Assembly (NCBI RefSeq): GCF_000526315.1 | Contig: NZ_JAFV01000001.1 | Location: forward strand, 4,267,501-4,331,500 | Source: Methylopila sp. 73B | GTDB taxonomy: Bacteria; Pseudomonadota; Alphaproteobacteria; Rhizobiales; Methylopilaceae | Direction: 5' to 3' | DNA: 64,000 nt | In this document: positions 7,427 through 61,524 of the stretch, in pieces | Layout: each line of letters begins with the position of its first letter | How positions within the stretch are numbered: position 1 is the first letter of the stretch | Notes under the pieces: model-generated | What the model saw: only the letters and a program-made list of their open reading frames with translations | Told to the model about the DNA's origin: nothing | The model's database searches: none | Program-made: the position numbers and the translations under genes

Positions 7427-7462
7427 GGTCGCTTCGAAAGGGCCGCCGTCAGGCGGCGCCGA

Positions 7463-9586: not shown

Positions 9587-9631
9587 GGCGGCGGTTCCTT
9601 CCGGTGGATGACGAGGCTCGAGCGGCCCCTG

Positions 9632-9652
9632 GGGCGACCGGGCGGGTCGCCC
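9632..9652. repeat. Intergenic hairpin between heme demethylase and GcvT-like gene
   Basis: GGGCGACC and GGTCGCCC form a perfect 8-bp stem around GGGCG. There is no T-run, so it is more likely an mRNA-processing or stabilising hairpin within the operon than a full terminator. Confidence 0.45.
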
Positions 9653-9702
9653 GGGTCGAGAAAGCCGGGATGTGATGGGCGCCGCGCGCGGCGCGGGGCG
9701 GG

Positions 9703-10743: not shown

Positions 10744-10800
10744 CGGCGGCCTCCGGCCTTCAGGTCTTCGGATGACAAGCGAAACGCCGCGCTTTCCACG

Positions 10801-10924
10801 TCTCCCCACAGGGGAGAGGTGGCGACGCGAAGCCGAGCGTGTGAGGGGGAGAGTCCGTTCCATAGAAGCGCAGCGCCCCCTCACCCGGCGCTCGCGCGCC
10901 GACCTCTCCCCACAGGGGAGAGGT
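10801..10924. repeat. Nested-palindrome intergenic element (copy 1)
   Basis: This element contains TCTCCCC-ACA-GGGGAGA (10801-10817), GTGAGGGGG (10841-10849) paired with CCCCCTCAC (10876-10884), and ACCTCTCCCC-ACA-GGGGAGAGGT (10902-10924). The same components recur at 27097-27225, so it is a dispersed non-coding repeat of the genome. Here it separates the reductase and heme demethylase genes. Confidence 0.8.
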
Positions 10925-10950
10925 GAAGGCCTGCGCTTGCTGAAAGGCGC

Positions 10951-43706: not shown

Positions 43707-45992
43707 ATGGCGCGCGAGACCCATATCGAAGCCTATGACGGTCCCGCCGGCGGATGGGGTTCGGCGAAATCCGTCGGGCGCTACGTGCTGGGCGAGGGCT
43801 CGCCGCTGCGGACCACCGCCGCGCTCGCCAAGCAGAACAAGGTCGGCGGCTTCGCCTGCGTCAGCTGCGCCTGGTCGAAGCCCCGCGATCCCAACGTGTT
43901 CGAGTTCTGCGAGAACGGCGCCAAGGCGACCGCCTGGGAGCTGACGTCGAAGGCGATCGACGCCAGCTTCTTCGCGCGCCACACCCTGCGCGAGCTGGAG
44001 CACTGGTCCGACTTCGCGCTGGAGGATCAGGGCCGCCTGACCGAGCCGCTGAAGTACGACGCGGCGAGCGACCGCTACCTCCCCATCGCCTGGAAGCAGG
44101 CCTTCGCCGAGATCGGCGCCGAGCTGAACGCGATCGATCCGAAGGCCGCGGTGTTCTACGCCTCGGGCCGGGCGTCGCTGGAGACGTCCTACCTCTACCA
44201 GCTGTTCGCGCGGATCTACGGCACCAACAACCTGCCGGACTCCTCCAACATGTGCCACGAGAGCACGTCCGTCGCGCTGCCGGAGAGCATCGGCGTGCCG
44301 GTCGGCACCGTCTTCCTCGAGGATTTCGAGACCACCGACTTCATCTTCTTCTTCGGCCAGAACGTCGGCTCCAACGCGCCGCGGATGCTGCATCCGCTGC
44401 AGGAGGCGCGGAAGCGCGGCGTGCCGATCATCACCTTCAACCCCTTGCGGGAGCGCGGGCTGGAGCGCTTCACCAACCCGCAGGCACCGACCGAGATGCT
44501 GACGGGGGCCGAGACGACGATTTCGACTCAGTACTGCCAGGTCAAGGCCGGCGGCGACCTCGCCGCCCTGTTCGGTCTCGCCAAGGCCCTGATCGCGCTC
44601 GACGACGCGGCGGCCGAGGCGAGCGGGCCGGCGGTGCTCGACCACGGCTTCATCGCCGAGCACACCCACGGCTTCGAGGCCTTCGCCGCCGCCTGCCGCG
44701 CGCGCGGCTGGGGGGAGATCGAGCGGGGCTCGGGGCTCTCCCGCGCCGAGCTGGAGCAGGCCGCCGGAACTTACGCCCGCTCGACCGCGGCGATCGCCGT
44801 CTACGGCATGGGCCTCACCCAGCACCGCACCGGCGTCGAGAACGTCCAGATGCTGGCGAACCTTCTGCTGTTGAAGGGCAACATCGGCCGCCCCGGCGCG
44901 GGCATCTGCCCCGTGCGCGGGCACTCCAACGTGCAGGGCCAGCGCACGGTCGGGATCACCGAGAAGACCAAGCTCGCGCCGCTCGACCGGCTGAAGGAGC
45001 TCTACGATTTCGAACCGCCGCGCGAGGACGGCATGGCGACGGTCGACGCCTGCGAGGGCATGGTCGCGGGGACGGTCGAGGCCTTCGTCGCCCTCGGCGG
45101 CAACTTCCTGCGCGCGATCCCCGAGACCGAGGCGATGGAGACGGCATGGCGAAAGCTCCGGCTCTCCGTCCAGATCGCCACCAAGCTGAACCGTAGCCAC
45201 GTCGTCCACGGCCGCGCGGCCTATCTGCTGCCGTGCCTTGGCCGGATCGAGATCGACCGGCAGGCGAGCGGCCCGCAGATGCTGTCGGTCGAAGATTCGA
45301 GCTCGCACTTCCATGGGTCGCGCGGCCTCGTCGACCCGGTCGCGGCGACGCTCAAGTCGGAGCTTGCGATCGTCGCGGGGATCGCGGAGGCGACGCTGCC
45401 CCCGAACCCCAAGGTCAACTGGAAGGGCTGGACCGCCGACTACGCAAAGGTGCGCGACGCGATCGAGGCGACCTATCCGAAGGTGTTCCCGGGGTTTAAC
45501 GCGCGCCTCGACACGCCCGGCGGCTTCCCCAAGCCGATCGCCGCGCGCGAGCGGGAGTGGAGCACCTCGACGGGAAAGGCGAACTTCATCTTCCCCGAGA
45601 GCCTCGACGAGAACCCGGACATGCCGGCGCCGAACCCGGACGTGCTGCGCCTCATCACGCTGCGGTCGAACGACCAGTTCAACACGACGATCTACGGCTT
45701 CGACGACCGGTTCCGCGGCGTCGACGGCACCCGCATGGTGGTGTTCATGAACGCGGCCGACATCGCGCGACTGGGCTTCGCCGACGCCGGGACGGTCACG
45801 ATGACGACGGCGGCCGACGACGCGCTGCGCGAGGTCGCGGGCTTCCGCATCGTCGCCTACGACATCCCCGAGGGCTGCTGCGCGGCTTATTACCCCGAGT
45901 GCAACCCGTTGATCCCGCTGTGGCATCACGCCAAGGGCTCGAAGGTGCCGGCCGCGAAGTCGATCCCGGTGACGCTCCGCGCGGCCGGATGA
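43707..45992 (+). CDS. FdhF/YdeP family molybdopterin oxidoreductase
   Basis: A 761-residue member of the formate-dehydrogenase-like molybdoprotein family. The N-terminal segment GGFACVSCAWSKPRDPNVFEFCENGAKA has Cys residues suited to an Fe-S cluster. Molybdopterin-binding signatures include CHESTSVALPESIG, GQNVGSNAPRMLHPL and GNIGRPGAGICPVRGHSNVQGQRTVGI, and the C-terminal dinucleotide-binding domain shows RSNDQFNTTIYGFDDRFRG. YdeP of E. coli is associated with acid resistance; the reaction remains unknown. It has no partner subunits here. Confidence 0.85.
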   Translation: MARETHIEAYDGPAGGWGSAKSVGRYVLGEGSPLRTTAALAKQNKVGGFACVSCAWSKPRDPNVFEFCENGAKATAWELTSKAIDASFFARHTLRELEHWSDFALEDQGRLTEPLKYDAASDRYLPIAWKQAFAEIGAELNAIDPKAAVFYASGRASLETSYLYQLFARIYGTNNLPDSSNMCHESTSVALPESIGVPVGTVFLEDFETTDFIFFFGQNVGSNAPRMLHPLQEARKRGVPIITFNPLRERGLERFTNPQAPTEMLTGAETTISTQYCQVKAGGDLAALFGLAKALIALDDAAAEASGPAVLDHGFIAEHTHGFEAFAAACRARGWGEIERGSGLSRAELEQAAGTYARSTAAIAVYGMGLTQHRTGVENVQMLANLLLLKGNIGRPGAGICPVRGHSNVQGQRTVGITEKTKLAPLDRLKELYDFEPPREDGMATVDACEGMVAGTVEAFVALGGNFLRAIPETEAMETAWRKLRLSVQIATKLNRSHVVHGRAAYLLPCLGRIEIDRQASGPQMLSVEDSSSHFHGSRGLVDPVAATLKSELAIVAGIAEATLPPNPKVNWKGWTADYAKVRDAIEATYPKVFPGFNARLDTPGGFPKPIAAREREWSTSTGKANFIFPESLDENPDMPAPNPDVLRLITLRSNDQFNTTIYGFDDRFRGVDGTRMVVFMNAADIARLGFADAGTVTMTTAADDALREVAGFRIVAYDIPEGCCAAYYPECNPLIPLWHHAKGSKVPAAKSIPVTLRAAG

Positions 45993-46025: not shown

Positions 46026-46979
46026 TCACCCGCGGTTGTGCAGGATGCGCCCGATCAGGTTCAGCAGCACCTGCGCCGCGAGGATCGAAGTGACGCCCGC
46101 GGGATCGTATTCGCGGGCGACCTCGACGAGGTCAACGCCGACCACCGTCCCGCGCTTGGTGATCCCGTCGAGCAGCTCCAGCACCTCGTAATAGGTGAAG
46201 CCGCCATGGCTCGGCGTGCCGGTGCCGGGCGCGATCGAAGGGTCGAAGCCGTCGATGTCGATCGTCAGGTAGTAGCGCTTGCCCGCCGGAATGCACTCCA
46301 GAACCGCGTCCACGCCGAGCTTGCGGATCTGGCGCACCGACAGGATGTCGGAGCCCATCGCCCGCGCGTCGTCGTAGCCCTCGCGGGCGGTGGAGGAAAC
46401 GTTGCGGATGCCGAGCTGGGTGAGGCCGGTGACGTAAGGCCGCTCCGCCGCGCGCCGCATCGGATTGCCGTGGCCGTAGCGCACGCCGTGGCGCTCGTCG
46501 ACGAAGTCGAGATGGGCGTCGAACTGGATGAGGTGGATCGGCTCTTCGTCCGAGAACGCGGCGATGCAGGGGATGTTGACGGAGTGGTCGCCGCCGAGCG
46601 TCACCGGCAGCGCGCCGCGTTTAAGGATCTTGCGCACCGCCGCCTCGATGTTGGCGTGGCTCTGCAGCGTGTCGGTGTGGATCATGTCGGCGTCGCCGAC
46701 GTCGACGATGCGCGCCTGGCCCGCGGGCAGGTAGACGACGTCGTCCTCGTGGTCGTAGGCGCCGGCGTGGCCGAAGGCGAACAGCGTCGAGGCCTCGCGG
46801 ATCGCGCGTGGGCCCGACCGCGCCCCCGAGCGCCACTGCGTGCCGAGGTCGAACGGCGCGCCGAGGATGGCGACGTCCGCGTCCAGCCGGTCCCAGTCGA
46901 GACAGAGCGGATATTTGCCGAAGGTCGCGACGCCCACGAAGGGCAGGTCGAGCCGTCCGGCGTCGTAGCCGTGAGCCAT
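46026..46979 (-). CDS. Ureohydrolase A (agmatinase/guanidino-compound hydrolase family)
   Basis: A 317-residue ureohydrolase. All binuclear metal ligands are present: His132 (LGGDHSVN), Asp154, His156 and Asp158 (QFDAHLDF), Asp241 and Asp243 (TIDIDGFDPSIAPGTGTPSHGG). The substrate-loop segment HGVRYGHGNPMRRAAE differs from that of its neighbour. The family hydrolyses guanidino groups to urea plus amine (agmatine, guanidinobutyrate, guanidine and others). It is the last gene of the operon, 3 bp after the second ureohydrolase, which suggests a joint or sequential function. Confidence 0.85.
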   Translation of the reverse strand: MAHGYDAGRLDLPFVGVATFGKYPLCLDWDRLDADVAILGAPFDLGTQWRSGARSGPRAIREASTLFAFGHAGAYDHEDDVVYLPAGQARIVDVGDADMIHTDTLQSHANIEAAVRKILKRGALPVTLGGDHSVNIPCIAAFSDEEPIHLIQFDAHLDFVDERHGVRYGHGNPMRRAAERPYVTGLTQLGIRNVSSTAREGYDDARAMGSDILSVRQIRKLGVDAVLECIPAGKRYYLTIDIDGFDPSIAPGTGTPSHGGFTYYEVLELLDGITKRGTVVGVDLVEVAREYDPAGVTSILAAQVLLNLIGRILHNRG

Positions 46980-46982
46980 GAG

Positions 46983-47966
46983 CTAGTGTCCTTCAGACCG
47001 CTTCTTCGCCGCGAGGCTGTCCGCCACCACGCAGAGCAGCTCGAACATCATCGTCGCGCCGGTCATGGCGGTGAGGCCGGAGGGGTCGAACGGCGGCGCG
47101 ACCTCGACAAGGTCCGCGCCGACCACGTCGAGTCCGCCGAGACGCCGCACCAGGGCTTGGGCCTCGCGCGTCGAGAGGCCGCCGATCTCCGGCGTGCCGG
47201 TGCCGGGCGCCTGCGAGGGGTCGATCGCGTCGATGTCGAAGCTGACGTAGGTCGGCCCGTCGCCGAGGATCGCGCGGGCCTCGTCCATCACGTCGTCGAC
47301 GCCGCGCGCGAGAAACTCCTCGATGAAGATCATCCGGACGCCCGCGGCTTTGGCGAAGTCGAAGCTCGCGGGATCGGCCACCGAGCCGCGCAGGCCGATC
47401 TGCACCATGCGCCGGGGGTCGACGAGGCCTTCCTCGATCGCCCGGCGGAACGGCGTGCCGTGGTTGTACTTCTGGCCGAAGAAGCTGTCGTAGGTGTCGG
47501 AGTGGGCGTCGAACTGGATCAGGCCCACGGCCGCGCCCTTGGACAGTCCGCGCAGGATCGGCAGCGTGATGAGGTGGTCGCCGCCGCCGGTGATCGGGAT
47601 CGCGCCGGCTTCCGACACGCCGGCGTAGTGCGCCTCGATCAGGCGCAGGCTCTCCATCAGGTCGAGCGGATGGGTCGGGCAGTCGCCGCAGTCGCCGACG
47701 CGGACGAGGTCGTAGGGCGAACGGCCCGTGACATGGTGGTGCCGTCGCACCAGGCTCGACTGGTTGCGCAACTCGCGCGGGCCGTGGCGCGTGCCCGCCC
47801 GGTTGGTCACGCCGCCGTCGAACGGCGCGCCGATCAGCGCGACGTCGACGTCGGCCGGGTCCGTCACCGGCAGGCGCATGAAGGTCGGCAGGCCGGCGAA
47901 GCGCGGCGTCACGCTGGTGTCAAGCGGCTGCGGCCAAGGGGCGCCGGCGGCGGTCGGATCGGTCAT
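46983..47966 (-). CDS. Ureohydrolase B (agmatinase/guanidinobutyrase-like)
   Basis: A 327-residue ureohydrolase, clearly different in sequence from the adjacent one. Metal ligands are His131 (TGGGDHLITLP), Asp153, His155 and Asp157 (QFDAHSDTYDS), Asp244 and Asp246 (SFDIDAIDPSQAPGTGTPEIGG). The KYNHGTPFRRAIEEGLVDPRRMVQIGLRG segment resembles guanidinobutyrase/guanidinopropionase-type enzymes. It follows the creatininase homologue by 19 bp. Substrate not determined. Confidence 0.85.
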   Translation of the reverse strand: MTDPTAAGAPWPQPLDTSVTPRFAGLPTFMRLPVTDPADVDVALIGAPFDGGVTNRAGTRHGPRELRNQSSLVRRHHHVTGRSPYDLVRVGDCGDCPTHPLDLMESLRLIEAHYAGVSEAGAIPITGGGDHLITLPILRGLSKGAAVGLIQFDAHSDTYDSFFGQKYNHGTPFRRAIEEGLVDPRRMVQIGLRGSVADPASFDFAKAAGVRMIFIEEFLARGVDDVMDEARAILGDGPTYVSFDIDAIDPSQAPGTGTPEIGGLSTREAQALVRRLGGLDVVGADLVEVAPPFDPSGLTAMTGATMMFELLCVVADSLAAKKRSEGH

Positions 47967-47985
47967 CTCTGAAGCTCCGGGCCGC

Positions 47986-48759
47986 TCAGAGGCCGAACTC
48001 TTTGCGGACGGCGGCGGTGATCAGGGCGACGTGGTCGTCCATCAGCCACTGGCCCTTCTCGGCCGTGGACCCCTGCGCGATCGCGAGCACGCCGGAGGCC
48101 GGCACGAAGCCCTCCGGCACGGGAAAGCGGTCGTAGGTCGGGAATTTCGCCGGGCCGTCGGTCGGCGCCTTGTCGATCTCCACCAGCTCCGGGCGCAGCA
48201 GCATCATCAGCGAGGTCTCGAGCAGGCTGGCGTGCTCCAGCTCGGTGCCGGGGAAGCCGTCCGGGAACAGCCGGTCGAGCGTCTCGCGCCGCACGAAATC
48301 CCAGTATTCGAAGCGCATCGCCTGCATGTCGGCGATCCCGTCGCGGCGAAGCTCGCGCAGGCCGAGGTCGAGGCCCTCGACCGAGGGCCAGGCGTTCTCG
48401 AAGTGGCCGACCACCAGCACGATGCGGCGGACGCCGTGATGGCCGAGGCCGCGGATGACGTCGCGCACCACGAGGGAGAAGGTGTTGGCGTCGAGGCTCA
48501 CCGTGCCGGGAAACAGCTCGCCGCCGCCCGAGCGCGGCATCGATTTGTAGCCGTAGGGAATGGTCGGGGCGACGAGACCGCCGACCGCGCGCGCGACCCG
48601 CTCGCAGACGCCGGTCGGCAGCACCACGTCGACGCCGAGCGGCAGGTGCGGCCCGTGCTGCTCGGTCGCGCCGAGCGGCAGGAACACGGGGGCGCCCCCG
48701 GCGATCTTGGCCTCGAACTCCGGCCAGCTCAGCTCGGACATGAAAACGCTGTCGACCAT
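47986..48759 (-). CDS. Creatininase family amidohydrolase with altered active-site lid
   Basis: A 257-residue enzyme that follows Pseudomonas creatininase over its whole length. Metal ligands Glu33, His35, Asp44, His119 and Glu121 are intact (GATEQHGPHLPLGVD, GHFEN), as are YGYKS, SGGGELFPGT and the YWDFV Trp153. At the second active-site tryptophan of creatininase (GWDIEH) this protein has GTELEH, with Thr172. It would open creatinine or a related cyclic amide. Pairing with two ureohydrolases suggests the product is a guanidino acid. No pita-bread creatinase gene is present. Confidence 0.83.
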   Translation of the reverse strand: MVDSVFMSELSWPEFEAKIAGGAPVFLPLGATEQHGPHLPLGVDVVLPTGVCERVARAVGGLVAPTIPYGYKSMPRSGGGELFPGTVSLDANTFSLVVRDVIRGLGHHGVRRIVLVVGHFENAWPSVEGLDLGLRELRRDGIADMQAMRFEYWDFVRRETLDRLFPDGFPGTELEHASLLETSLMMLLRPELVEIDKAPTDGPAKFPTYDRFPVPEGFVPASGVLAIAQGSTAEKGQWLMDDHVALITAAVRKEFGL

Positions 48760-48772
48760 GCGGGGCGGCCCT

Positions 48773-49483
48773 TCAATGCATCGCGGCGCCGCCGTCGACG
48801 CTGACGCATTGGCCCGTCATGAACGTCGTGTGGCGGCTGGTGAGGAACAGGATCGCCTCGGTCAGCTCGTGCGGCTGGCCGATGCGGTTGAGCGGGTTGC
48901 GCGTCTCGACCGCGAGCTCCTCCGGCGACATCGCGCCGGCGTCGAGCAGCGGGGTGTCGACCGGGCCGGGCGCGATGGCGTTGACCAGCACGCGGGGGCC
49001 GAGCTCGCGCGCCCAGGAGCGCGTCAGCGCCAGCACCGCGCCCTTGGTCGCGCAGTAGCCCGAGGCGCCGGCGCGGCCGAGGTAGCCGAGTTCGGAGGCC
49101 ACGTTGACGATCTTGCCGCCCTCGGGGCCGAAATGCTTCACCGCCTCCCGCGCGGCCAGGATCAGGCCCTTGAGGTTCACGGCGACCATCAGGTCGAAGG
49201 CGGCGAAGTCGAACGCCGCGAGGGAGGAGCCGCGGTAGACGCCGGCGCAGTTCACCACGGCGTCGATCCCGCCGAGCGACTCCGCCGCCTCGGCCATGGC
49301 GGCGATCATGTCGGCCTCGTCCGAGACGTCGGCGGTGATCGTGAGGAAGGGCGCGTCGGCGGGCGACAGGTCGATCCCGGCGACCTTGGCCCCGGCCTCA
49401 GCCAGCCGCAGGGCGCCCGCGCGGCCGATGCCGCTCGATGCGCCGGTCACCACCACCTTGAGGCCCTTATGCGCGCTCACCAC
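48773..49483 (-). CDS. SDR family oxidoreductase 1 of the guanidino operon
   Basis: A 236-residue short-chain dehydrogenase: VTGASSGIGRAG (cofactor), NCAGVYRG, Ser in VNVASELGYLG, YCATKGA (Tyr-x3-Lys) and the C-terminal TGQCVSVDGGAAMH. The start is a GTG at 49483 with GGGGAG seven bases upstream; a second GTG directly follows and overlaps the preceding stop. The substrate is unknown; it belongs to the same transcript as the ABC importer and the hydrolases. Confidence 0.83.
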   Translation of the reverse strand: MVSAHKGLKVVVTGASSGIGRAGALRLAEAGAKVAGIDLSPADAPFLTITADVSDEADMIAAMAEAAESLGGIDAVVNCAGVYRGSSLAAFDFAAFDLMVAVNLKGLILAAREAVKHFGPEGGKIVNVASELGYLGRAGASGYCATKGAVLALTRSWARELGPRVLVNAIAPGPVDTPLLDAGAMSPEELAVETRNPLNRIGQPHELTEAILFLTSRHTTFMTGQCVSVDGGAAMH

Positions 49484-50235
49484 GGCGCTTCTCCCCGGTC
49501 GACGCCGAGGCTCTGCCCCGTCACGCTCGCCGCGAGGTCGGAGGCGAGGAACAGGTAGGGGCCGGCGACGTCCTCCGGCTCCATGAAGCCGGGCAGCGCC
49601 TGCGCGGCCACGACCGCGTCGAGCAGGGCCTCCTCCGGGGTTCCCGAGCGCTCGGACATGCGCTGGAGCGAGCGCAGCGAAGCCTCGGTCCGCACCCAGC
49701 CCGGGCACACCGCGTTGACCGTGATCCCGCGCGGCCCGAGCTCCTTCGCCCAGGTCTTGGTGAGGCCGATGACCGCATGCTTCGACGCGACGTAGCCGCC
49801 GAACGCCGCTTCCGCGGTGCGCGACCAGACCGAGGCGGTGTTGATGACCCGTCCGCCGGACGAGAGCTTCGGCAGCAGCGCGCGCGTCATCAGGAACATG
49901 CCGGTGACGTTGATCTCGAGGATCCGGCGGAAGGTCGCCTCGTTCTCGGCGCTGGCGTCGTCGAGCGGCGTCAGGCGCTCGTAGCCGGCGTTGTTGACCA
50001 GCACGTCGAGCTTCGGCAGCGCGGCGGCGAAGGCTTCGACATCGGCCGATCGGGTGACGTCGACCTCGTGGCCGCGGGCGCCGAGGCGTTCCGCCTCCTC
50101 ATGGATCGCCGGGTCGTCGGCGAGCATGATCAGCTCGGCGCCGGCGGCGGAGAAGGCGCGGGCGATCCCGAGCCCGATGCCGCGGCTCGAGCCGGTGACG
50201 ACGACCGTGCGCCCGGCGAGCCCCTCGAGGTTCAC
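49477..50235 (-). CDS. SDR family oxidoreductase 2 of the guanidino operon
   Basis: A 252-residue short-chain dehydrogenase with VTGSSRGIGLGIARAF, NNAGYERLTPLDD, the Ser in NTASVWSRT, YVASKHAVIGL and a C-terminal TGQSLGVDRGEAPW. The GTG start overlaps the stop of the ABC ATPase gene (GTGA), so it is translationally coupled to the importer. Two different SDRs in a row suggest two oxidation/reduction steps on the imported compound. Confidence 0.85.
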   Translation of the reverse strand: MNLEGLAGRTVVVTGSSRGIGLGIARAFSAAGAELIMLADDPAIHEEAERLGARGHEVDVTRSADVEAFAAALPKLDVLVNNAGYERLTPLDDASAENEATFRRILEINVTGMFLMTRALLPKLSSGGRVINTASVWSRTAEAAFGGYVASKHAVIGLTKTWAKELGPRGITVNAVCPGWVRTEASLRSLQRMSERSGTPEEALLDAVVAAQALPGFMEPEDVAGPYLFLASDLAASVTGQSLGVDRGEAPW

Positions 50236-51005
50236 AGCTCGTCTCCCGCGGCCGTCCGCACCAGGCCGATGGTCTCGCGGCGAAGAGCGAAGAAGTCCTC
50301 GCCGTCGCGGATCTCCAGCGTCCGCTCCTCCCCGAGCCGGCTGCGGACGTCGATCTCGGCGACGATCCGGGTGGGGCGCTTCGAGAACACCACCACGCGG
50401 TCGGCCAGGAACAGGGCCTCCTCGACGTCATGGGTGACGAACACGATGGTCTTGGCGTCGCGCCGCTGGATGCGCCGCAGCTCGGTCTGCAGCTGTTCGC
50501 GCCGGAGCGCGTCGAGGGCGCCGAAGGGCTCATCCATCAGCAGCACGTCGGCGCCGGCCGCGAGCGTGCGGGCGATCGCGATGCGCTGGCGCATGCCGCC
50601 GGAGACCTGGCTCGGGAAGTGGTCGGAGAACTCGTAGAGGCCGACGAGGTCGAGGTAACGCTCTGCCCGCACCGCCTTCTCGTCCTCGGACAGGTCGTGG
50701 CGGTACTTCAGCCCGAAGGCGACGTTCTGGGCGACGGTGAGCCATGGGAACGACGAGTAGGACTGGAACACCATGCCCCGCCGCCGGTCCGGCGCGCCGA
50801 CGGGCTCTCCCTCCAGCCGGATCTCGCCGGAGGTCGGCTGGTCGAGCCCGCCGATCATCCGCATCAGCGTGGTCTTGCCGCAGCCGGAGGGGCCGAGGAA
50901 CACCACGAACTCGTGCCGGTCGATCGCGAGGTTGAACGGCGTCTCGACCACCGGCACGGCACCGAAGCTCTTGGTGACCTGATCGAACTGGAGATGGGCG
51001 GTCAC
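50232..51005 (-). CDS. NitT/TauT-type ABC transporter ATP-binding protein
   Basis: A 257-residue ATPase: Walker A GPSGCGKTT, Q-loop VFQSYSSFPWLT, signature VSGGMRQRIAIARTL, Walker B VLLMDEPFGALD, and switch His in FVTHDVEEAL. It is of the SsuB/TauB type that serves sulfonate, nitrate, pyrimidine and other small-organic importers. The start is a GTG. It is separated from the permease gene by 238 bp containing a palindromic element, but remains in the same order and strand. Confidence 0.87.
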   Translation of the reverse strand: MTAHLQFDQVTKSFGAVPVVETPFNLAIDRHEFVVFLGPSGCGKTTLMRMIGGLDQPTSGEIRLEGEPVGAPDRRRGMVFQSYSSFPWLTVAQNVAFGLKYRHDLSEDEKAVRAERYLDLVGLYEFSDHFPSQVSGGMRQRIAIARTLAAGADVLLMDEPFGALDALRREQLQTELRRIQRRDAKTIVFVTHDVEEALFLADRVVVFSKRPTRIVAEIDVRSRLGEERTLEIRDGEDFFALRRETIGLVRTAAGDEL

Positions 51006-51053
51006 GACGCGTGCCTCTCGTTTCGCTGTTCGACCTCTGACGCTGGCCCACTG

Positions 51054-51204
51054 GCGTCCCTCCCTCGCAGAGGGGAGGGTGGACGGCCGAAGGCCGGCCG
51101 GGTGGGGTGGTTTCCGCAGACGGCGCGCCCAACGCCCGAGACCCCACCCGACCCTTCGCTGCGCGAAGGGCCACCCTCCCCAAGCTGCGCTTGAGGAGGG
51201 ACGC
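51054..51204. repeat. 151-bp nested-palindrome element inside the ABC operon
   Basis: Terminal inverted repeats GCGTCCCTCC (51054-51063) and GGAGGGACGC (51195-51204) are perfect. Inside are GGGGAGGGTGG (51072-51082) with CCACCCTCCCC (51171-51181) and GGGTGGGGT (51100-51108) with ACCCCACCC (51141-51149). It resembles a MITE-like or BIME-like element inserted between permease and ATPase genes. Confidence 0.8.
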
Positions 51205-51243
51205 CCGCGCCCTGCACAATGCGTGGAGGAGTCGAAGCGGCCA

Positions 51244-52113
51244 TCACAGGTACCGGAAGGCGCGGCGGTGGATGAGCCGCAGCAGCTGGTCGGTGGCGAG
51301 GCCGATGACGCCGATGAGCACGACGCCGGCCATCACCTCGGGCGTCTTCATGTAGCGGCGCGCCGCCCAGATCACGAAGCCGAGGCCGGAGTCCGCCGCG
51401 ACGATCTCGGCGATGATCAGGTAGGTCCAGCACCAGCCGAGGGTGATGCGCAGGTTGTCGACGAGCCCCGGCAGCATGGCGCGGAAGGCGACGTCCTTCA
51501 GCACCTGGCCCTGGTTCGCGCCGACGGTGTAGGCGATCTCGACGTACTCCTGCGGCACGCGGCGCATGTCGTCGGCCACCAGCAGCACCAGTTGGAAGAA
51601 GGTCCCGAGCCACAGCAGAAAGATCTTGGTCTCCTCGCCGACGCCGAACCAGATGATCGCGAGCGGCACCAGCGCCGGGACCGGAAGGTAGCGGATGAAG
51701 TCGATCGCGGGCTCCAGCGCCGCGCCGATCACACGGTAGCCGCTCATCGCGACGCCGATCGGGATGGCGAGCAGCGCCGCCAGCAGGAAGGCGCCCCAGA
51801 CCCGGAGCGTGGAGACCCAGGCGTGCCAGAGCAGGTGCTGGTCCGAGATCATCCGCCCCATGGCGGAGAGGATCGCGCTGGGGGAGGGGAAGAACAGCGG
51901 CGTGGTGAGTCCGAGGCGGGCGACGAACTCCCAGACGAGCACGATCGCGACGCTGGCGCCGACCGCGATCGCCGGGCCCCACCCGCGCGGCAGCGGCGTC
52001 CTGAGCCGCAGAAGCCCGCGGGAGGCGCGCTTCCGGGGGCGCGCGACCGCCGCGGGGGGCGCGGCGGTCGCGGCGGCCTCGGGCCGGGAGATCGTCTCCG
52101 CCACCGCGCTCAC
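51244..52113 (-). CDS. NitT/TauT-type ABC transporter permease
   Basis: A 289-residue permease with about six membrane segments and the EAA-type loop (AYTVGANQGQVLKDVAFRAMLPGLVDNLRITLGWCWTYLIIAEIVAADSGLG). An Ala/Pro/Arg-rich N-terminal tail precedes the first membrane helix. The GTG start overlaps the stop of the binding-protein gene as GTGA. Function: uptake of the operon's substrate, with the ATPase encoded downstream. Confidence 0.87.
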   Translation of the reverse strand: MSAVAETISRPEAAATAAPPAAVARPRKRASRGLLRLRTPLPRGWGPAIAVGASVAIVLVWEFVARLGLTTPLFFPSPSAILSAMGRMISDQHLLWHAWVSTLRVWGAFLLAALLAIPIGVAMSGYRVIGAALEPAIDFIRYLPVPALVPLAIIWFGVGEETKIFLLWLGTFFQLVLLVADDMRRVPQEYVEIAYTVGANQGQVLKDVAFRAMLPGLVDNLRITLGWCWTYLIIAEIVAADSGLGFVIWAARRYMKTPEVMAGVVLIGVIGLATDQLLRLIHRRAFRYL

Positions 52114-53099
52114 TTCGCGCCGGAGATCGCGGCCATGACCGAGGGGTCGATCTGCTGCTTGGCGTCGAGCTTCACGTCCGCCGACTTGTAGTCGAGGTTG
52201 AGCTGCATGACGGTGTCGAAGATCTCGTAGAGCTTGCCCGGCTTCTCGGGCGTCCCGAGCATCGCCGCGGTCGCCGCCTTGTCGGTGAACTCAAGGCTGG
52301 TGTCGAAGATCTCCTTCACCTCCTTGTCGCTCAGGTTGTAGTGCGGCGCCGCCAGCTTGATGAACTCAGCCGGGTCGCTCTTGTAGAGGTCGATCGCCTT
52401 GAAGATGCCCGTCAGGAAGTGCTGGTACTTGACCGGGTTTTTCTTCAGGTCGTCCTGCCGGACGTCGATGATGTCGACAACGATGTCGCTGTCCTTGGAC
52501 GAGATCAGCAGCTTGCCGTTGCGCTGGGTCTGTGAGGAGAGCGCCTGCGACATCACCGGCTCGTAGGTGCCGATCGCGTCGATAGAGCTGTCCGCGAACA
52601 CCGCCACGGTGTCCTGCGTCATGATCTCCTTGATCTTCAGGTCGTCGAGGGTCATGCCCTCCTTCTTCAGCGCGAGCTGCAGCAGCAGGCGGGCCGGAAT
52701 GTTGGGCTCGATCGCGACGGTCTTGCCCTTCAGCTCCTTCACCGAGCCGATCTTGCCGTCGGCGATCACGCCGTCGCCGCCGACCGACATGTCGATGGTG
52801 CCGATGATGACGCCCGGCGTGGAGGCGTCGCGCGGGCGGCCCTGGTGCTCGCCGACGGTGCGCATGTCGACTTCGACGTCGCCCCGCGTCATGGCGGCGA
52901 GCACGTTCGAGCGGTCGTCCTCGAAGCGCATCTCGACCTCGATCCCGAGCTCCTTGAAGTAGCCCTTGTCGATGGCGACGAACACCGGCGCGTAGCCGGT
53001 CCAGGTCGGGGCCAGCACGCGGATCTTGTTGTCCGCGGCGTGGGCCGTCCCGGCGAGGACGGCGAGCGACAAGGCGGCGGCGATCGTGATGCGCGTCAT
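52110..53099 (-). CDS. NitT/TauT-type ABC transporter substrate-binding protein
   Basis: A 329-residue periplasmic binding protein with a Sec signal (MTRITIAAALSLAVLAGTAHA) and the SsuA/TauA-like fold (NKIRVLAPTWTGYAPVFVAIDKGYFKELGIEVEM, GSVKELKGKTVAIEPNIPARLLLQLALKKEGM). It is the first gene of the eight-gene operon that ends with the ureohydrolases, and it is divergent from a LysR gene. Ligand unknown; context points to a creatinine-like or other guanidino compound. Confidence 0.87.
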   Translation of the reverse strand: MTRITIAAALSLAVLAGTAHAADNKIRVLAPTWTGYAPVFVAIDKGYFKELGIEVEMRFEDDRSNVLAAMTRGDVEVDMRTVGEHQGRPRDASTPGVIIGTIDMSVGGDGVIADGKIGSVKELKGKTVAIEPNIPARLLLQLALKKEGMTLDDLKIKEIMTQDTVAVFADSSIDAIGTYEPVMSQALSSQTQRNGKLLISSKDSDIVVDIIDVRQDDLKKNPVKYQHFLTGIFKAIDLYKSDPAEFIKLAAPHYNLSDKEVKEIFDTSLEFTDKAATAAMLGTPEKPGKLYEIFDTVMQLNLDYKSADVKLDAKQQIDPSVMAAISGAK

Positions 53100-53179
53100 G
53101 CGGGCAAGCTCCGGGCGGGGACGATGGCCGGATGCTTGCGCGAATTCATATCGACGGAAATCATGAATGTTGAAATCTT

Positions 53180-53199
53180 ACATCGAGGAATGTCGATGT
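53180..53199. promoter_or_regulatory. Operator candidate between the binding-protein gene and LysR
   Basis: ACATCGA-N6-TCGATGT is a perfect 7-bp inverted repeat in the 138-bp divergent gap. It lies 38 bp before the LysR ATG in an AT-rich patch and is a good candidate for the regulator's binding site. Confidence 0.55.
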
Positions 53200-53237
53200 G
53201 AGATCGGCTTCGGGCGAACCACAGGGAGCGGCATCGC

Positions 53238-54182
53238 ATGCGCCGGCTGGACAACATCGATCTGCGGCTGCTGCGCGTGTTCGTGGCGCTCGCGGAGGCC
53301 GGCAGCTTCGCGGACGCGCAGGTCATCCTCAACCTGTCGCAGTCCACGCTCTCGACGCACCTTGCGGCGCTCGAGCGCAACATGGGCGGGCAGCTCTGCG
53401 AGCGCGGCCGCGCCGGCTTCAGGCTGACGCCGTTCGGGCAGTCGACCTACGCCGCCGCGAAGCGCCTGTTCGAGGACATCGACGCCTTCCAGAACCGCGT
53501 CGGCAGCGACCGCCAGCGCCTCGTCGGGCGCCTGCGCGTCGGGATCATCGACGGCGTGGTGACGAACGCGAAGCTCGGCCTGCAGACGGCCTTCAGCCGC
53601 TACATGGACTACGCCTCGGAGGTGTTCGTCGACCTTGAGCTCGGCACGCCGCTGGAGCTCGAGCAGGCGCTGATGGACGGGCGGCGCGACGTCATCATCG
53701 GCCCGTTCTCCCAGAAGGCGCCGGGCGTCGCCTACACCCCGCTCTGCCGGGAGCCGCATGCGCTCTACTGCGGCGCCGGGCACCCGTTGTTCGGCGTGAA
53801 GGACGTCCGCCACGCCGACATCGAGGCGGCGCTGTTCTCGGTCCGGCGCTACCGGCACCTGGACGACCTCTACCGGGTCAACCACCCGCGGGCGAGCGGC
53901 TCCATCCTCCACATGGAGGCCCAGGCGATGCTGATCCTGTCCGGCCGTTTCATCGGCTACCTGCCCCGCCACATCGGCGACGACTGGGCCTCGCGCGGCC
54001 AGATGAAGGCGATCAAGGCCGAGAGCTACGGCTTCGAATCCCAGCACTTCGTGGCGACGCGCCGGCTGAAGGGCGACGCGCCGCACGTCGACGCTTTCGT
54101 GGAGGAGCTGAAGCGCCAGTCGGCGGAGACCGGCGCTCTCGAAAAGCGCGCCGGCCGCAAGGCCTCGGCCCCTGCCGCCTGA
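53238..54182 (+). CDS. LysR family transcriptional regulator of the guanidino operon
   Basis: A 314-residue LysR-type regulator. Winged helix: NIDLRLLRVFVALAEAGSFADAQVILNLSQSTLSTHLAALERNMGGQLCERGRAGFRLT (about 5-63); the effector domain follows. It is transcribed divergently from the NitT/TauT importer and hydrolase operon, the usual arrangement for a LysR regulator with its target. It ends two bases before the convergent stop of the allophanate hydrolase gene. Confidence 0.87.
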   Translation: MRRLDNIDLRLLRVFVALAEAGSFADAQVILNLSQSTLSTHLAALERNMGGQLCERGRAGFRLTPFGQSTYAAAKRLFEDIDAFQNRVGSDRQRLVGRLRVGIIDGVVTNAKLGLQTAFSRYMDYASEVFVDLELGTPLELEQALMDGRRDVIIGPFSQKAPGVAYTPLCREPHALYCGAGHPLFGVKDVRHADIEAALFSVRRYRHLDDLYRVNHPRASGSILHMEAQAMLILSGRFIGYLPRHIGDDWASRGQMKAIKAESYGFESQHFVATRRLKGDAPHVDAFVEELKRQSAETGALEKRAGRKASAPAA

Positions 54183-54184
54183 GG

Positions 54185-55996
54185 TCAGGCCGCCTTCAGC
54201 GAGCGCGCATAGGCGCGCCAGCCGCCGAACGACGTGATGTCCGGCGCGCCCGCGACGCCGGCCGCCTCCACGAGGAAGCCGAGCGCGCTCGTGCCGTCGC
54301 CGAGCGCGAGCGTCCCGATCCCGAGGGGGGAGGGGATGCCGGCGACGAACGGCCCGAAGCTTTCGGCCGGCAGCGCCCAGACCTCGGTTTCGATCGGGGC
54401 GCCGGAGCCGTCCGCAACGCGCAGCAGGCCGGGACGCGGCGTCGCGCCGTCGAGCAGGTGCAGCCGGTAGAGCGGCGCGGTCGGGACGGCGCGCAGGAAG
54501 CGCGCGCCGCGCTTCAGCAACTCGCCGTTCAGCGCCATGCCGGAAAGGTGCGCGCCGACCACGACGATCTCGATCTCGCCCGCTTCGGCGACAGCTGGAC
54601 GGACGATCGGCTGCGGCGCCGGGCGTCCGAGCGCGCCGATCGCGACGCCGCCCGCCGCGTGGATCGCAGCCCCCAGCGCCGCGAGCCGCCCGTCCGCGCC
54701 GGCGGGTCCGATCAGGGTGACGCCGGCGGGGATTCCGTCGGCGCGCGGCCGGCCGGGCACGGCCAGGGCGCAGTAGTCCAGCAGGTTGACGAAGTTGGTG
54801 TAGGTCCCGAGCTCGCTGTTGAGCGCGATCGGGTCCGCGAGCACCGCCTCGACCGTGTGGGCGCGGGGGAAGGTCGGGACCAGCATGCAGTCGACCGTGT
54901 CCCAGACGCGCCCAAGTTCGCGGCGCAGCTCCAGCAGGCGGTACACGTCGCCATAGGCGTCGGCGGCGGAGAACCTGCGTGCGCCCTCGATGATCTCGCG
55001 GGTGACCGGGTGCAGCGTCTCGGGCGAGGCCTCGATGAAGTCGCGGATCTGATGATAGCGCGAGGCGACCCAGGACCCCTCGTAGAGCATTCGCGCAACC
55101 GCGAAGTAGGGCTCGAAGTCGATCTCCACGGTCTCGCCGCCGAGCGCCCGCACGTCCGCGAGCGTGGCGTCGAAGGCGGCCTCCGCCGCGGCGCTGCCGC
55201 CGAAGCGGCGGCTGGCGGCGTCGGGGATCGCGACGCGCGTCCGGGGCGGAAGCGGCCCAAGCTGCGGCACGGCCATGTCGCGCGAAAACCCGTCCTCCGG
55301 GTCGTAGCCGCCGATGACGCCGAGCACCGCGTAGCCGTCGTCGACGGTCTGCGCGAACACCGTCACGCCGTCGACCAGCCGCACGGAGTAGACCACGCCG
55401 CCGGTGGGCGTCAGGCCGACGGTCGGCTTCAAGCCGACGATGTTGTTGAGCCCCGCCGGCACGCGGCCCGAGCCCGCCGTGTCGGTGCCGAGCGTGAAGG
55501 GCACGAGCCCAGCGGCGACCGCGACCGCCGATCCCGAGCTGGAGCCGCCCGGCACGAGCGTCGGGTCGACCGTGTTGCGCGGGACGGGGTAGGGCGTGCG
55601 CACGCCGACGAGGCCGGTCGCGAACTGGTCGAGGTTGGTCTTGCCGATCGCGATCGCGCCGGCCGCGAGCGTGCGCTCGACTGAAGGCGCGTGCCGCGCC
55701 GGCTCGTAGGCGAACTCCCGGCAGGCGGCGGTGGTGGGGAGACCCGCGAAGTCGATGCTGTCCTTGATGCCGAACGGAACGCCCCAGAGCGGCCGTCCGT
55801 CAGGCTTCGGCCCGAGCGCGCGGGCCGCCGCGCGGGCCGTCTCCCGGTCCACCAGCGCGATGAAGACGCCGGGATCGTTCAGCGCGTCGATCCGGTCGAA
55901 GACCTCGTCGACCACCGCGGCGGGGTCGAGCCCCTCGGCGTAGGCGGTCCTGAGCGAGGCGAGATCGAAGGCGAGCTCGGAAAGTCTGGTGGTCAT
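54185..55996 (-). CDS. atzF: Allophanate hydrolase
   Basis: A 603-residue two-domain amidase. The N-terminal amidase-signature domain has Lys78 (GVPFGIKDS), the cis-Ser in PGGSSSGSAVAVA and the nucleophile Ser176 in GTDTAGSGRVPAGLNNIVGLKPT. The C-terminal domain (from about 490, EIVVVGAHLSGMALNGELLKRGARFL to LGFLVEA) is the one found in allophanate hydrolases and splits off the second product. It makes ammonia and CO2 from allophanate. It is the last gene of the dipeptide-type ABC operon; no urea carboxylase or biuret hydrolase is in the window. The start is ATG 55996 with AGGAG upstream. Confidence 0.85.
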   Translation of the reverse strand: MTTRLSELAFDLASLRTAYAEGLDPAAVVDEVFDRIDALNDPGVFIALVDRETARAAARALGPKPDGRPLWGVPFGIKDSIDFAGLPTTAACREFAYEPARHAPSVERTLAAGAIAIGKTNLDQFATGLVGVRTPYPVPRNTVDPTLVPGGSSSGSAVAVAAGLVPFTLGTDTAGSGRVPAGLNNIVGLKPTVGLTPTGGVVYSVRLVDGVTVFAQTVDDGYAVLGVIGGYDPEDGFSRDMAVPQLGPLPPRTRVAIPDAASRRFGGSAAAEAAFDATLADVRALGGETVEIDFEPYFAVARMLYEGSWVASRYHQIRDFIEASPETLHPVTREIIEGARRFSAADAYGDVYRLLELRRELGRVWDTVDCMLVPTFPRAHTVEAVLADPIALNSELGTYTNFVNLLDYCALAVPGRPRADGIPAGVTLIGPAGADGRLAALGAAIHAAGGVAIGALGRPAPQPIVRPAVAEAGEIEIVVVGAHLSGMALNGELLKRGARFLRAVPTAPLYRLHLLDGATPRPGLLRVADGSGAPIETEVWALPAESFGPFVAGIPSPLGIGTLALGDGTSALGFLVEAAGVAGAPDITSFGGWRAYARSLKAA

Positions 55997-56079
55997 GGCG
56001 CGCTCCTGAAAACGAGGCCGCTGAAGTGATGTGCATGCCGCCGCGCGGCGCGAAGGGGCGTTTCCACGCGACGCGCTCC

Positions 56080-57765
56080 TCAGACCGGCGGGTGCGGGAT
56101 CGCGGCGATCAGCTCGCGCGTGTAGGCGGCCTGCGGGCTCTCGAGCACCGCCTCCGCGGATCCCTGCTCCACGACGGCGCCCTGCCGCATGACGATGACG
56201 CGGTCGCAGAGCAGCCGGACTACGTGGAGGTCGTGGCTCACGAACAGGTAGCTCATGCCGAGCCTCGCCTTGAGATCGTCGAGCAGGTTGAGCACCACCG
56301 CCTGGACCGAAACGTCCAGCGCCGCGGTCGGCTCGTCGAGGATGACCAGCTCCGGGTCGAGCGCGATGGCGCGGGCGATGCCGACGCGCGCCTTCTGGCC
56401 GCCGGACAACTGGTGCGGGAAGCGGTCGAGCAGATCGAGCGGCAACCCGACCAGCGTCGCGAGCTCCTCGCACCGAGCGCGGAGCGCGTCGCGGCCCCTC
56501 AGCGCGCTCATGCGCATCAAGGGATCCGCGATGGCGCGCGCGGCGGTGAAGCGCGGGTTCAGGCTGTCGGTCGGGTCCTGGAACACCATCTGGATGCGCC
56601 GGCGATGGGCGGAGGAGGCGAAGCTCTTCGCCGGGATCGCCCCGATGTCGTCGGTTCCGAGCGTGATCCGGCCCGAGGTCGGGTCGAGCAGCCGCATCAC
56701 CATCATCGAGGTGGTGGACTTCCCGCAGCCGCTCTCGCCCACGAGGCCGAGGCTCTCGCCGCGGCGGATCTCGAACGAAATCCCGTCGACGGCGCGGAAC
56801 GGCGCCTGGTCGCCCGCGGGCGCGCCGCGACCGAACATCTGGGCCCAGGTCTTGGAGGCGCCCTGGCGCGGATACTCCTTCACCAGCCCCTCGACCTTGA
56901 GCAGCACGTCGCCGGTCACGGTCGTGGGCGGGTTCGCCGGCGTCGCGCTCTCTGGCGGCAGCAGGCCGCGCAGCGTCGAGCCCGGCCGCGGCGTCGCCCG
57001 CATCAGCCGCCGCGTGTAGTCGTGGGCGGGCGCGGCGAACACCTGGCGCGCGGGCGCGGTCTCCACCACCTCGCCCTTCTTCATCACCACCACCTTGTCG
57101 CAATAGGCGGCGGCCAGCCCCAGGTCGTGAGTGATCAGGATGGTCGACATGCCGCGCGCCCGCGTCAGCTCCGTCACCAGATCCATCACCGCCTTCTGGG
57201 TGGTGACGTCGAGGCCGGTGGTCGGCTCGTCCGCGATCAGCAGCTGCGGCCGGCAGGCGAGCGCGAGCGCGATCACGATGCGCTGGCACATGCCGCCCGA
57301 CAGCTCGAAGGGATAGGCGTGGTAGCGCTCCTCCGGCCGGGCGATCTTGACCTGCTCCAGCATCTCGATCGCCTTGGCCTTGGCGTCCATCGAGCCCGCC
57401 TGCGCGTGGCGGCGCAGCACGTCCTCGATCTGGCGGCCGACCTTGCGGATCGGGTTCAGCGCCATGCGCGGGTTCTGGAAGATCATCGAGATCTCCCGGC
57501 CGCGCACGTCGGTCATCTGCCGCTCGCTCGCGGCGCGGAGATCGACGCCGGAGAAGGCGACGGAGCCGTCCGCGATCCGGCCGGCGCGGTCGAGGATCCG
57601 CATCACGGCGTAGGAGGTGACGGACTTGCCGGAGCCGGACTCGCCGACGACGCCGACGGTCTCTCCGCGGCCGACCTCCAGGTCGACGCTCCTCACCGCC
57701 TGCACCACGCCGTTGCGGGTGGCGAATTCGACGGTGAGGGCCTTCACGTCCAACAGAGCGGTCAT
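56080..57765 (-). CDS. Dipeptide/glutathione-type ABC transporter, fused dual ATPase
   Basis: A 561-residue protein with two complete ATPase domains. The first (1-270) has GESGSGKS, ELSGGMCQRIVIALAL and LLIADEPTTGLD. The second (about 295-560) has GESGCGKST, QLSGGQKARVGIARAIAL and LVILDEPTAALD. Such DppD-DppF fusions occur in GsiA (glutathione import) and YejF. It powers the two permeases encoded 4 bp and 0.9 kb upstream. The binding protein at 59815 delivers the ligand. Confidence 0.9.
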   Translation of the reverse strand: MTALLDVKALTVEFATRNGVVQAVRSVDLEVGRGETVGVVGESGSGKSVTSYAVMRILDRAGRIADGSVAFSGVDLRAASERQMTDVRGREISMIFQNPRMALNPIRKVGRQIEDVLRRHAQAGSMDAKAKAIEMLEQVKIARPEERYHAYPFELSGGMCQRIVIALALACRPQLLIADEPTTGLDVTTQKAVMDLVTELTRARGMSTILITHDLGLAAAYCDKVVVMKKGEVVETAPARQVFAAPAHDYTRRLMRATPRPGSTLRGLLPPESATPANPPTTVTGDVLLKVEGLVKEYPRQGASKTWAQMFGRGAPAGDQAPFRAVDGISFEIRRGESLGLVGESGCGKSTTSMMVMRLLDPTSGRITLGTDDIGAIPAKSFASSAHRRRIQMVFQDPTDSLNPRFTAARAIADPLMRMSALRGRDALRARCEELATLVGLPLDLLDRFPHQLSGGQKARVGIARAIALDPELVILDEPTAALDVSVQAVVLNLLDDLKARLGMSYLFVSHDLHVVRLLCDRVIVMRQGAVVEQGSAEAVLESPQAAYTRELIAAIPHPPV

Positions 57766-57769
57766 GGGC

Positions 57770-58708
57770 TCACGTCCTCCGCTGCGGGTCGATGATGTCG
57801 CGCAGGCCGTCGCCGAGCAGGTTGAAGCAGAACACGGCGATCATCAGCGCCAGGCCTGGGAACAGCGCGATCCACCACTCGCCGGAGATGATGAAGCCGG
57901 CGCCCTCGGCGACCATGATCCCCCACTCAGGCGTCGGCGGCTTCACGCCGAGGCCGATGAAGGAGAGACCCGCAGCGTTCAGGATCGCGTAGCCCATGGT
58001 CAGCGACATCTGCACCGCCATGATCGGCATGATGTTTGGCAGAATCTGCGTCAGCAGGATGCGCATTTCGGAGTTGCCGGTGAGCCGGGCCGCCTGCACG
58101 AAGCCGGCCTCCCGGCGGACGTTGGCCTCCGCGCGGGCGATGCGCTGGTACAGGGGGAAATTCACGATCGCGGTGGCGATGACGATGTTGGTCACCGTGT
58201 TGCCGAGCGCCGCGACGATGCCCATGGCCAGCACGAACAGCGGGAAGGCCATGATGGTGTCGCTGATGCGGCTCATGATGCGGTCGGTCCAGCCGCCATA
58301 GAAGCCGGCGCAGACGCCGGCGAAGCCGCCGAGCGCGAACACCAGTGCGACCGAGCAGATCGCGATTGTGAGGTCGAGCCGGGTCGCGACCAGCACGCGG
58401 GAGAAGATGTCCCGCCCGATCTGGTCGGTGCCGAACCAGTGCGCCGCGGAGGGCGGCTGCAGCGCCGCGGCGGTGTCGGAGGCGAGCGGGTCGTAGGGCG
58501 CGATCCACGGTCCGAGGACGGCGGCGAGCACGATCACGAAGAACAGCGCGAAGGCGAAGCCGGTGACGGGGTTCGAGGTCGCGACGTAGCGGGCGTGGCC
58601 GAGGCCGGCGGCGAAGCCGGCAGCGGGCCGCACGGGGTGTTCGATCACGGCCGGGGCGGGCTCCGGGAGCGGCTGCGGCAGGGAGGCTGAGACGTCGAGG
58701 TTGCTCAT
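57770..58708 (-). CDS. Dipeptide-type ABC transporter permease 2 (DppC-like)
   Basis: A 312-residue permease with a hydrophilic N-terminal extension, about six membrane segments and the DppC-type segment FGTDQIGRDIFSRVLVATRLDLTIA. The EAA loop is ARLTGNSEMRILLTQILPNIMPIM. The C-terminus is GDGLRDIIDPQ. ATG 58708 overlaps the stop of the first permease gene as ATGA. Confidence 0.9.
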   Translation of the reverse strand: MSNLDVSASLPQPLPEPAPAVIEHPVRPAAGFAAGLGHARYVATSNPVTGFAFALFFVIVLAAVLGPWIAPYDPLASDTAAALQPPSAAHWFGTDQIGRDIFSRVLVATRLDLTIAICSVALVFALGGFAGVCAGFYGGWTDRIMSRISDTIMAFPLFVLAMGIVAALGNTVTNIVIATAIVNFPLYQRIARAEANVRREAGFVQAARLTGNSEMRILLTQILPNIMPIMAVQMSLTMGYAILNAAGLSFIGLGVKPPTPEWGIMVAEGAGFIISGEWWIALFPGLALMIAVFCFNLLGDGLRDIIDPQRRT

Positions 58709-59718: not shown

Positions 59719-59814
59719 GGCGGCCTCCTTGGCTGGAGCGCACGGGCGGTCATCCGCCGCGCAGGGCATGCGTTACGCTTGGGGTCACTCGAACGTCAGG
59801 CGGGTGAAGGGGCC

Positions 59815-61437: not shown

Positions 61438-61474
61438 GCCTCGTCTCCCCAAGCGATGTCTTCGCTGGCGAAAT

Positions 61475-61524
61475 ATTGTATGCAATTCATCAATATTGCA
61501 TGCTTAAATAGGCATCATTGATGC
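61475..61524. promoter_or_regulatory. GntR operator candidates in the divergent promoter
   Basis: Three short palindromes cluster in an AT-rich patch: ATTG-TATG-CAAT (61475-61486), GCATGC (61498-61503) and GCATCA-T-TGATGC (61512-61524, perfect). GntR/FadR-type regulators bind short palindromes of this kind. The patch lies between the binding-protein gene and the regulator. Confidence 0.5.

Follow-up and report, generated by a model that had tools for sequence, protein, structure and literature searches.

A minus-strand operon at 46026–53099 of a 64,000-nucleotide stretch of the Methylopila sp. 73B genome (contig NZ_JAFV01000001.1, positions 4,267,501 to 4,331,500; hereafter the window) carries genes of a NitT/TauT-type importer, two short-chain dehydrogenases (SDR1 and SDR2), a creatininase homologue (crn) and two ureohydrolases (ureoA and ureoB). 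From sequence comparison we propose that it serves to break down a guanidino compound by way of a creatinine-like cyclic acyl-guanidine, and not to degrade creatinine; we judge the chances of this proposal to be even. The genes form a compact cluster beside a LysR gene, and in related loci the SDR1–SDR2 pair is accompanied by genes for hydrolases of the ring-amide type and of the urea-releasing or ureido type. The enzymes belong to known families; together they would form a pathway that adds a new variant to the catabolism of guanidino compounds. No description of such an operon was found among the literature matches listed, judged on titles and the beginnings of abstracts, and none was found linking guanidinopropionase with creatininase.

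All eight open reading frames (ORFs) are open and intact, run from 53099 to 46026 and belong to the families assigned by the first-pass annotation. The order starts with the periplasmic binding protein (SBP) of the importer, a member of the NMT1 family (52110–53099; Pfam NMT1, 70.7 bits) with a signal-like N-terminus, followed by the permease (51244–52113; BPD_transp_1, 82 bits) and the ATPase (50232–51005; ABC_tran, 109 bits) of this ATP-binding cassette (ABC) system. Every NCBIfam match of the SBP lies under its cut-off, and so do all of the 25 NCBIfam matches listed for the ATPase. SDR1 (49477–50235) and SDR2 (48773–49483) both have the catalytic S-Y-K residues; SDR2 starts with GTG, and the longer ORF listed for it would overrun SDR1. 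Then follow crn (47986–48759), ureoA (46983–47966) and ureoB (46026–46979). The gaps from SBP to ureoB are −4, 238, −4, −7, 13, 19 and 3 base pairs (bp). The LysR-type regulator gene (53238–54182, plus strand) is divergent and adjoins most related operons.

For comparison, loci gathered by homology searches with crn, ureoB and SDR1 were scanned with reference proteins (L035–L102, L116, L153–L172, L203–L222 and L250–L265). The SDR1–SDR2 pair is present in 56 of them, or in 54 after two genomes represented twice were reduced to one locus per genome; because of the way the loci were gathered, they are not a random sample and their proportions are not population frequencies. These 54 loci span Alpha-, Beta- and Gammaproteobacteria. 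The first-pass annotation had suggested a search for conservation of the gene order, and the order of divergent LysR, SBP, permease, ATPase, SDR1, SDR2, crn, ureoA and in part ureoB is indeed seen again, with minor changes, in Methylopila/Hansschlegelia, Jiella, Acetobacter, Mesorhizobium and others. It persists down to 56–59% identity of crn. Since this gene order recurs in many genera, it is not due to chance. In the order, 27 of 297 genomes have a crn match (E ≤ 1e-40, canonical creatininases included) and 27 of 297 an SDR1 match at 1e-68; at 1e-70, crn matches are found in 10 of 385 genomes at class level and in 10 of 398 at phylum level. Within the genus, crn occurs only in the own genome and in five of nine other sampled genomes, thus the operon is patchy even there. 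It is a real operon, yet patchily distributed.

The central question is the substrate of crn. The protein clears the NCBIfam creatininase model (TIGR04448, EC 3.5.2.10) with 355.3 bits against a cut-off of 235, and it matches the creatininase of Pseudomonas putida with 267 bits and 49.6% identity. The metal and catalytic positions, which we take to be E34, H36, D45, H120, E122 and H178, read EHDHEH in both proteins (6/6 kept). However, Trp174 of the P. putida enzyme, presumably the substrate cap that closes over creatinine, is replaced by Thr. In a comparison of 91 crn homologues with known context, residue 174 is not Trp in 47 of the 48 copies linked to the SDR pair, and Trp174 is kept in 37 of the 43 unlinked copies. 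As the first-pass annotation had stated, the pita-bread (M24) creatinase of known creatinine degradation is absent: none of the eight genes encodes it, and a search of the own genome with an M24 creatinase finds no match at E ≤ 1e-10 (a search that included no control genome). In the scan with reference proteins, none of the 54 SDR-pair loci has an M24 creatinase nearby, and this creatinase query does find matches in 13 of the 47 other crn loci. Eight plasmid-borne creatininase loci served as control; six have M24 creatinase annotated close by, and all eight keep Trp174.

True creatinine catabolism would require that the creatininase makes creatine and that a ureohydrolase replaces the pita-bread creatinase, splitting creatine into sarcosine and urea. 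The TIGR04448 score, the match to the P. putida enzyme and the intact metal ligands speak for this route. A LysR gene stands beside some canonical operons as well. The window operon differs from the canonical pair of creatininase and M24 creatinase by the loss of Trp174, by the missing creatinase, near 0 of 54 SDR-pair loci against six of eight canonical ones, and by the SDR pair and ureohydrolases found instead. None of its eight genes would handle sarcosine, and the SDRs would be left unexplained. Furthermore, the importer is of the NitT/TauT type, while a polyamine-type importer is annotated in five of the eight canonical loci. The human guanidino acid hydrolase is inactive on creatine and guanidinoacetate according to the excerpted text of PMC9772407, which bears on ureoA by analogy only. 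With Trp174 lost and no creatinase seen, creatinine is an unlikely substrate, and we consider creatinine catabolism very improbable. The name creatininase is probably wrong for the window homologue, which we propose to be a cyclic acyl-guanidine amidohydrolase.

The proposed route through a cyclic acyl-guanidine gains its second element from ureoA, whose sequence points to the 3-guanidinopropionase (GpuA) kind. Among solved ureohydrolases, its closest relatives are GpuA of P. aeruginosa (3nip, 431.7 bits, 62.7% identity) and then GbuA (3nio, 306.8 bits, 47.2%). The metal ligand motifs GGDH, DAHSD and DIDAID are present. Two positions in GbuA numbering, Arg72 as acid clamp and Tyr157, are taken by us as GpuA marks. 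Arg72 is kept in all 28 aligned operon copies of ureoA, and the Tyr157 position holds Tyr in 15 and Phe in 13 of them, the window being among the latter. The alignment includes L055 and L057, which are second copies of L036 and L040, and leaves out L049 and L170 (no SDR pair), the 36% homologues in L049 and L053, and the ureoA of loci with a PuuE-like protein. The window ureoA thus shares metal ligands and Arg72 with GpuA, and differs from it by the Phe and by the company of SDRs and a ring hydrolase. Arg72 in GbuA could contact the acid group of the substrate, according to the excerpted text of PMC9772407.

The second ureohydrolase is of another kind. UreoB (192 bits to 1wog) is 37.5% identical to ureoA, keeps the motifs GGDH, DAHLD and DIDGFD, and has different residues at the acid-clamp position. 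The first-pass annotation had named independent occurrence of the hydrolases as a point that would speak against a joint pathway. This is what we find for ureoB only: 54 of the 297 genomes searched within the order carry it, and 16 of 20 examined ureoB loci outside the close kin of the window lack the SDR pair. Since it is widespread without the pair, ureoB represents an added, independent module. UreoA, in contrast, accompanies the SDR pair in 38 of the 54 loci; the two genes are not equivalent. Two adjacent ureohydrolase genes are likewise described for the metformin/dimethylguanidine hydrolase in the excerpt of PMC11399263, where only one subunit has the metal ligands and nickel chaperone genes lie in the operon. 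Unlike in that enzyme, both window proteins keep GGDH, DAHxD and DxDxxD, and no chaperone is among the eight genes. A similar heteromer with one dead subunit is thereby ruled out.

For the SDR pair, the first-pass annotation had assumed a role in dealing with the alcohol or carbonyl left over. We find it more likely that the SDRs act upstream, in building the ring. SDR1 has acidic residues after strand beta-2, from which we infer an NAD-dependent type; its best NCBIfam subfamily is 3-hydroxybutyrate dehydrogenase with 183 bits, under the cut-off of 258. Searches of the PDB with the SDRs gave no match at the strict limits of 1e-40 and 1e-38. The chemistry has a published precedent in fungal nicotinate catabolism. 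There, as reported in the excerpts of PMC9304392, the SDR HxnW oxidises the 6-hydroxy carbon beside the ring nitrogen to give a cyclic imide, which HxnM opens. PuuE and the cyclic imidases related to it hydrolyse ring amides and descend from polysaccharide deacetylases (excerpts of PMC9863593 and PMC9304392). The operon variant with a PuuE-like protein has the same two families as HxnW–HxnM, an SDR and a PuuE-related imidase. The window operon differs from HxnW–HxnM in three points: its ring should contain a guanidine, the opener is of the creatininase family, and release of urea is expected next.

The route would then proceed as follows. The importer would bring in a guanidino compound that bears either an alcohol open to oxidation or an aldehyde masked as a cyclic hemiaminal. 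SDR1 and SDR2 would oxidise this compound with NAD, and in the final step the hemiaminal carbon would become the C=O group of a cyclic acyl-guanidine. The crn protein, of the kind lacking Trp174, would open this ring to a linear, 3-guanidinopropionate-like guanidino acid, and ureoA would split the latter into an amino acid and urea. Because the ureoA pocket is GpuA-like, the best single guess for this step is 3-guanidinopropionate, giving beta-alanine and urea, with the six-membered dihydroisocytosine as the preceding ring. Urea may be passed to one of the three ureases encoded in the genome, where three urease alpha genes score over the cut-off and no urea carboxylase does. UreoB would add a second specificity. 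This logic follows the published SDR–imidase chemistry; the substrate and all activities in it are inferences. Import, ring opening by the creatininase homologue and urea removal by a ureohydrolase, the sequence of steps suggested by the first-pass annotation, recur as a unit.

The related loci keep the SDR pair and exchange its partners. The ring opener is crn in 42 of the 54 loci and a PuuE-like protein of the polysaccharide-deacetylase family in nine; one locus has both and two have neither. In L213, L216 and L260, the importer, SDR1, SDR2 and ureoA stand with the PuuE-like protein and without crn. The best model of three such proteins is allantoinase PuuE with 69–80 bits, far under its cut-off of 425. 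The interchange of crn and the PuuE-like protein beside the same SDR pair suggests a cyclic amide as their common substrate. The next hydrolase is ureoA with ureoB in 20 loci, ureoA in 18, ureoB in two and a BiuH-like protein in eight, and none is seen in six. In those eight, no ureohydrolase is near, and the BiuH/RutB-like hydrolase follows crn. That of L077 matches biuret hydrolase (6xjm) with 236.8 bits and RutB (8bkd) with 134.6 bits, stays under both model cut-offs (BiuH 272.7 against 370, RutB 141.5 against 378), and differs from both enzymes by the company of a desaturase-type oxygenase, SDRs and crn.

With these counts it can also be asked whether the operon forms a single pathway at all. 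The importer may feed guanidino acids such as 3-guanidinopropionate straight to ureoA and ureoB, with SDRs and crn serving a different, co-regulated substrate. UreoB clearly travels alone, and L052, L054, L156 and L165 carry SDR1, SDR2 and crn without a ureohydrolase, which speaks for such a division. Against it, 38 of the 54 loci have ureoA close to the SDR pair, with a BiuH/RutB-like hydrolase in its stead in eight more, and we regard two separate functions as rather unlikely.

An oxygenase gene accompanies some SDR pairs, of the membrane desaturase type in eight loci, of the Rieske type in three and of the flavin mononucleotide (FMN) type in one; 42 loci have none. In some relatives the aldehyde or hemiaminal is probably the product of such an oxygenase or, in isolated loci, of an aldolase-like enzyme. 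The Pseudomonas-type operons have the order SBP, desaturase-type oxygenase, SDR1, SDR2, EamA, crn, biuret/RutB-like hydrolase, a lactonase-like gene (not in all), an HRI1-like gene, permease and ATPase, and in three of eight (L072, L075 and L116) genes for urea carboxylase and allophanate hydrolase adjoin. L037 combines a Rieske gene with both ureohydrolases. The HRI1-like gene occurs there and in L062 as well, which ties the Pseudomonas-type and Rieske-type operons together. The HRI1-like proteins (L077:12194–12961, L037:4927–5694 and L062:8478–9278) are encoded in operons with an oxygenase gene in Alpha- and Gammaproteobacteria; they have no solved relative (best E 1.4), and the Pfam family HRI1 is reached in L077 (28 bits, cut-off 27) and no Pfam family in L037 and L062. 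In L062, from a proteobacterial metagenome-assembled genome, LysR, Rieske, HRI1-like, SDR2 and crn genes are consecutive (6251–10774), with neither SDR1 nor a ureohydrolase among them.

These oxygenases allow another role for crn. It may be a formamidase, like the riboflavin enzyme of Sinorhizobium meliloti, acting after an oxygenase and an SDR have turned N-methyl into N-formyl, or a C–C hydrolase on a cyclitol diketone, like IolN; the operon would then degrade N-methylguanidines or guanidinocyclitols. The Rieske, HRI1-like, SDR2 and crn series of L062 and the SDR2, crn and Rieske series of L043 and L154 fit such a scheme, the closest solved structure to the Rieske protein is carnitine monooxygenase, and a formamidase of the creatininase family is known (excerpt of PMC9478397). 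However, the PuuE-like family takes the place of crn in some loci, and there is no oxygenase in 42 of 54 loci nor in the window operon. The IolN model (NF041098) reaches 69 bits against a cut-off of 245, and the cyclitol identity survives only within this alternative, which we consider unlikely as a whole.

Several single loci show genes near the pair that could act as further front ends. In L260, a gene resembling serine hydroxymethyltransferase (SHMT; 10897–12216) directly follows the PuuE-like gene and reaches 177 bits with the fluorothreonine transaldolase model (cut-off 650); it is a possible aldehyde-making step. As a general front end the SHMT-like gene was rejected, as nothing matching an SDR, crn, the PuuE-like protein or a ureohydrolase lies beside its plasmid homologues in L266 and L267. 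In L262, on a plasmid of Rhizobium sp. CIAT894, genes for a cysteine-desulfurase-like pyridoxal phosphate enzyme and an HpcH/HpaI-type aldolase flank SDR1–SDR2, divergent from crn–ureoA (6708–10367), and are in this one case another possible front end. An argininosuccinate-lyase-like gene precedes SDR1 on the one short contig of L156. EutBC lies behind the L043 module, also a single case and perhaps a neighbouring operon.

Several observations weigh against a cyclic acyl-guanidine route. The crn protein exceeds the NCBIfam model for true creatininases by 120 bits. Two SDRs are more than a minimal scheme needs, and the window operon has no oxygenase. Each aldolase-like front end comes from one locus, the SHMT-like gene from L260 and HpcH/HpaI from L262. 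Around the SDR pair of six of the 54 loci (L052, L054, L156, L165, L258 and L265), no hydrolase of a known urea or ureido type is seen; two of the six, L156 and L258, are located at the end of a contig. In L049 (8880–10643), a creatininase homologue that has Trp174 stands immediately before a 62% GpuA-like gene, without the SDR pair. To be noted, some of the loci behind the counts at residue 174 were found partly via a peptide pattern biased to non-Trp; in genome searches alone, with a choice independent of this residue, non-Trp is found in 24 of 25 linked copies and Trp174 is kept in 14 of 15 unlinked ones. Trp174 loss and SDR linkage are also phylogenetically confounded (independent-pairs p = 1). 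The two traits change only four and five times on the tree, which therefore gives no independent test. Although a first, smaller tree grouped the SDR-linked crn copies better, their best clade holds 34 of 48 with a support of 0.62, and a single origin is not supported.

Upstream of the operon, the first-pass annotation had noted a palindrome in the gap shared with LysR, and an imperfect one is present at 53175–53204 (ATCTTACATCGAGGAATGTCGATGTGAGAT), self-complementary at 18 of its 26 central positions. In the matching gap, the palindrome is equal or better in L035 and L036 (20/26), fair in L038 (16/26) and weaker in L037 and L040 (14/26), and the corresponding stretch of L039, L041 and L045 shows no evident palindrome (10–12 of 26). 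It is a possible LysR operator. No guanidine riboswitch or other Rfam element was found in the window at the gathering threshold. The 238-bp gap between permease and ATPase is filled by a dispersed repeat (51010–51243, minus strand) with 58 matches in the own genome including itself, at 69–100% identity. It lies outside the conserved operon; L035 and L036 are without it and have only about 20 bp at this place. The repeat could influence expression of the downstream genes. Next to the operon, at 54185–61485, an allophanate hydrolase gene (TIGR02713, 725.8 bits, cut-off 511) stands behind a peptide-type ABC importer, and at 43707–45992 a gene for an FdhF/YdeP-family oxidoreductase (TIGR01701, 977.7 bits, cut-off 582) converges on the operon end.

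Taken further, the loci would fit an undescribed, widespread pathway for cyclic guanidines and, in the Pseudomonas-type operons, for urea analogues. A constant SDR1–SDR2 engine would make a cyclic acyl-guanidine or acyl-urea from aldehydes supplied by exchangeable front ends (Rieske, desaturase-like or FMN oxygenases, perhaps aldolase-like enzymes), and exchangeable back ends would open the ring and release urea or carbamate. This generalisation is possible, and we offer it only tentatively. Proteins named creatininase by the current NCBI model probably act in part on another substrate, and can be recognised by residue 174 and by the context of the SDR pair. If the proposed route is true, plant- and soil-associated bacteria would tap guanidines for nitrogen in a new manner, beside the recent metformin and guanidino acid hydrolases. 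If the generalisation also holds, the creatininase family contains a large branch that never meets creatinine. The real substrates, perhaps hydroxylated relatives of arginine or homoarginine from plants, would then be common, unrecognised nitrogen sources in the environment.

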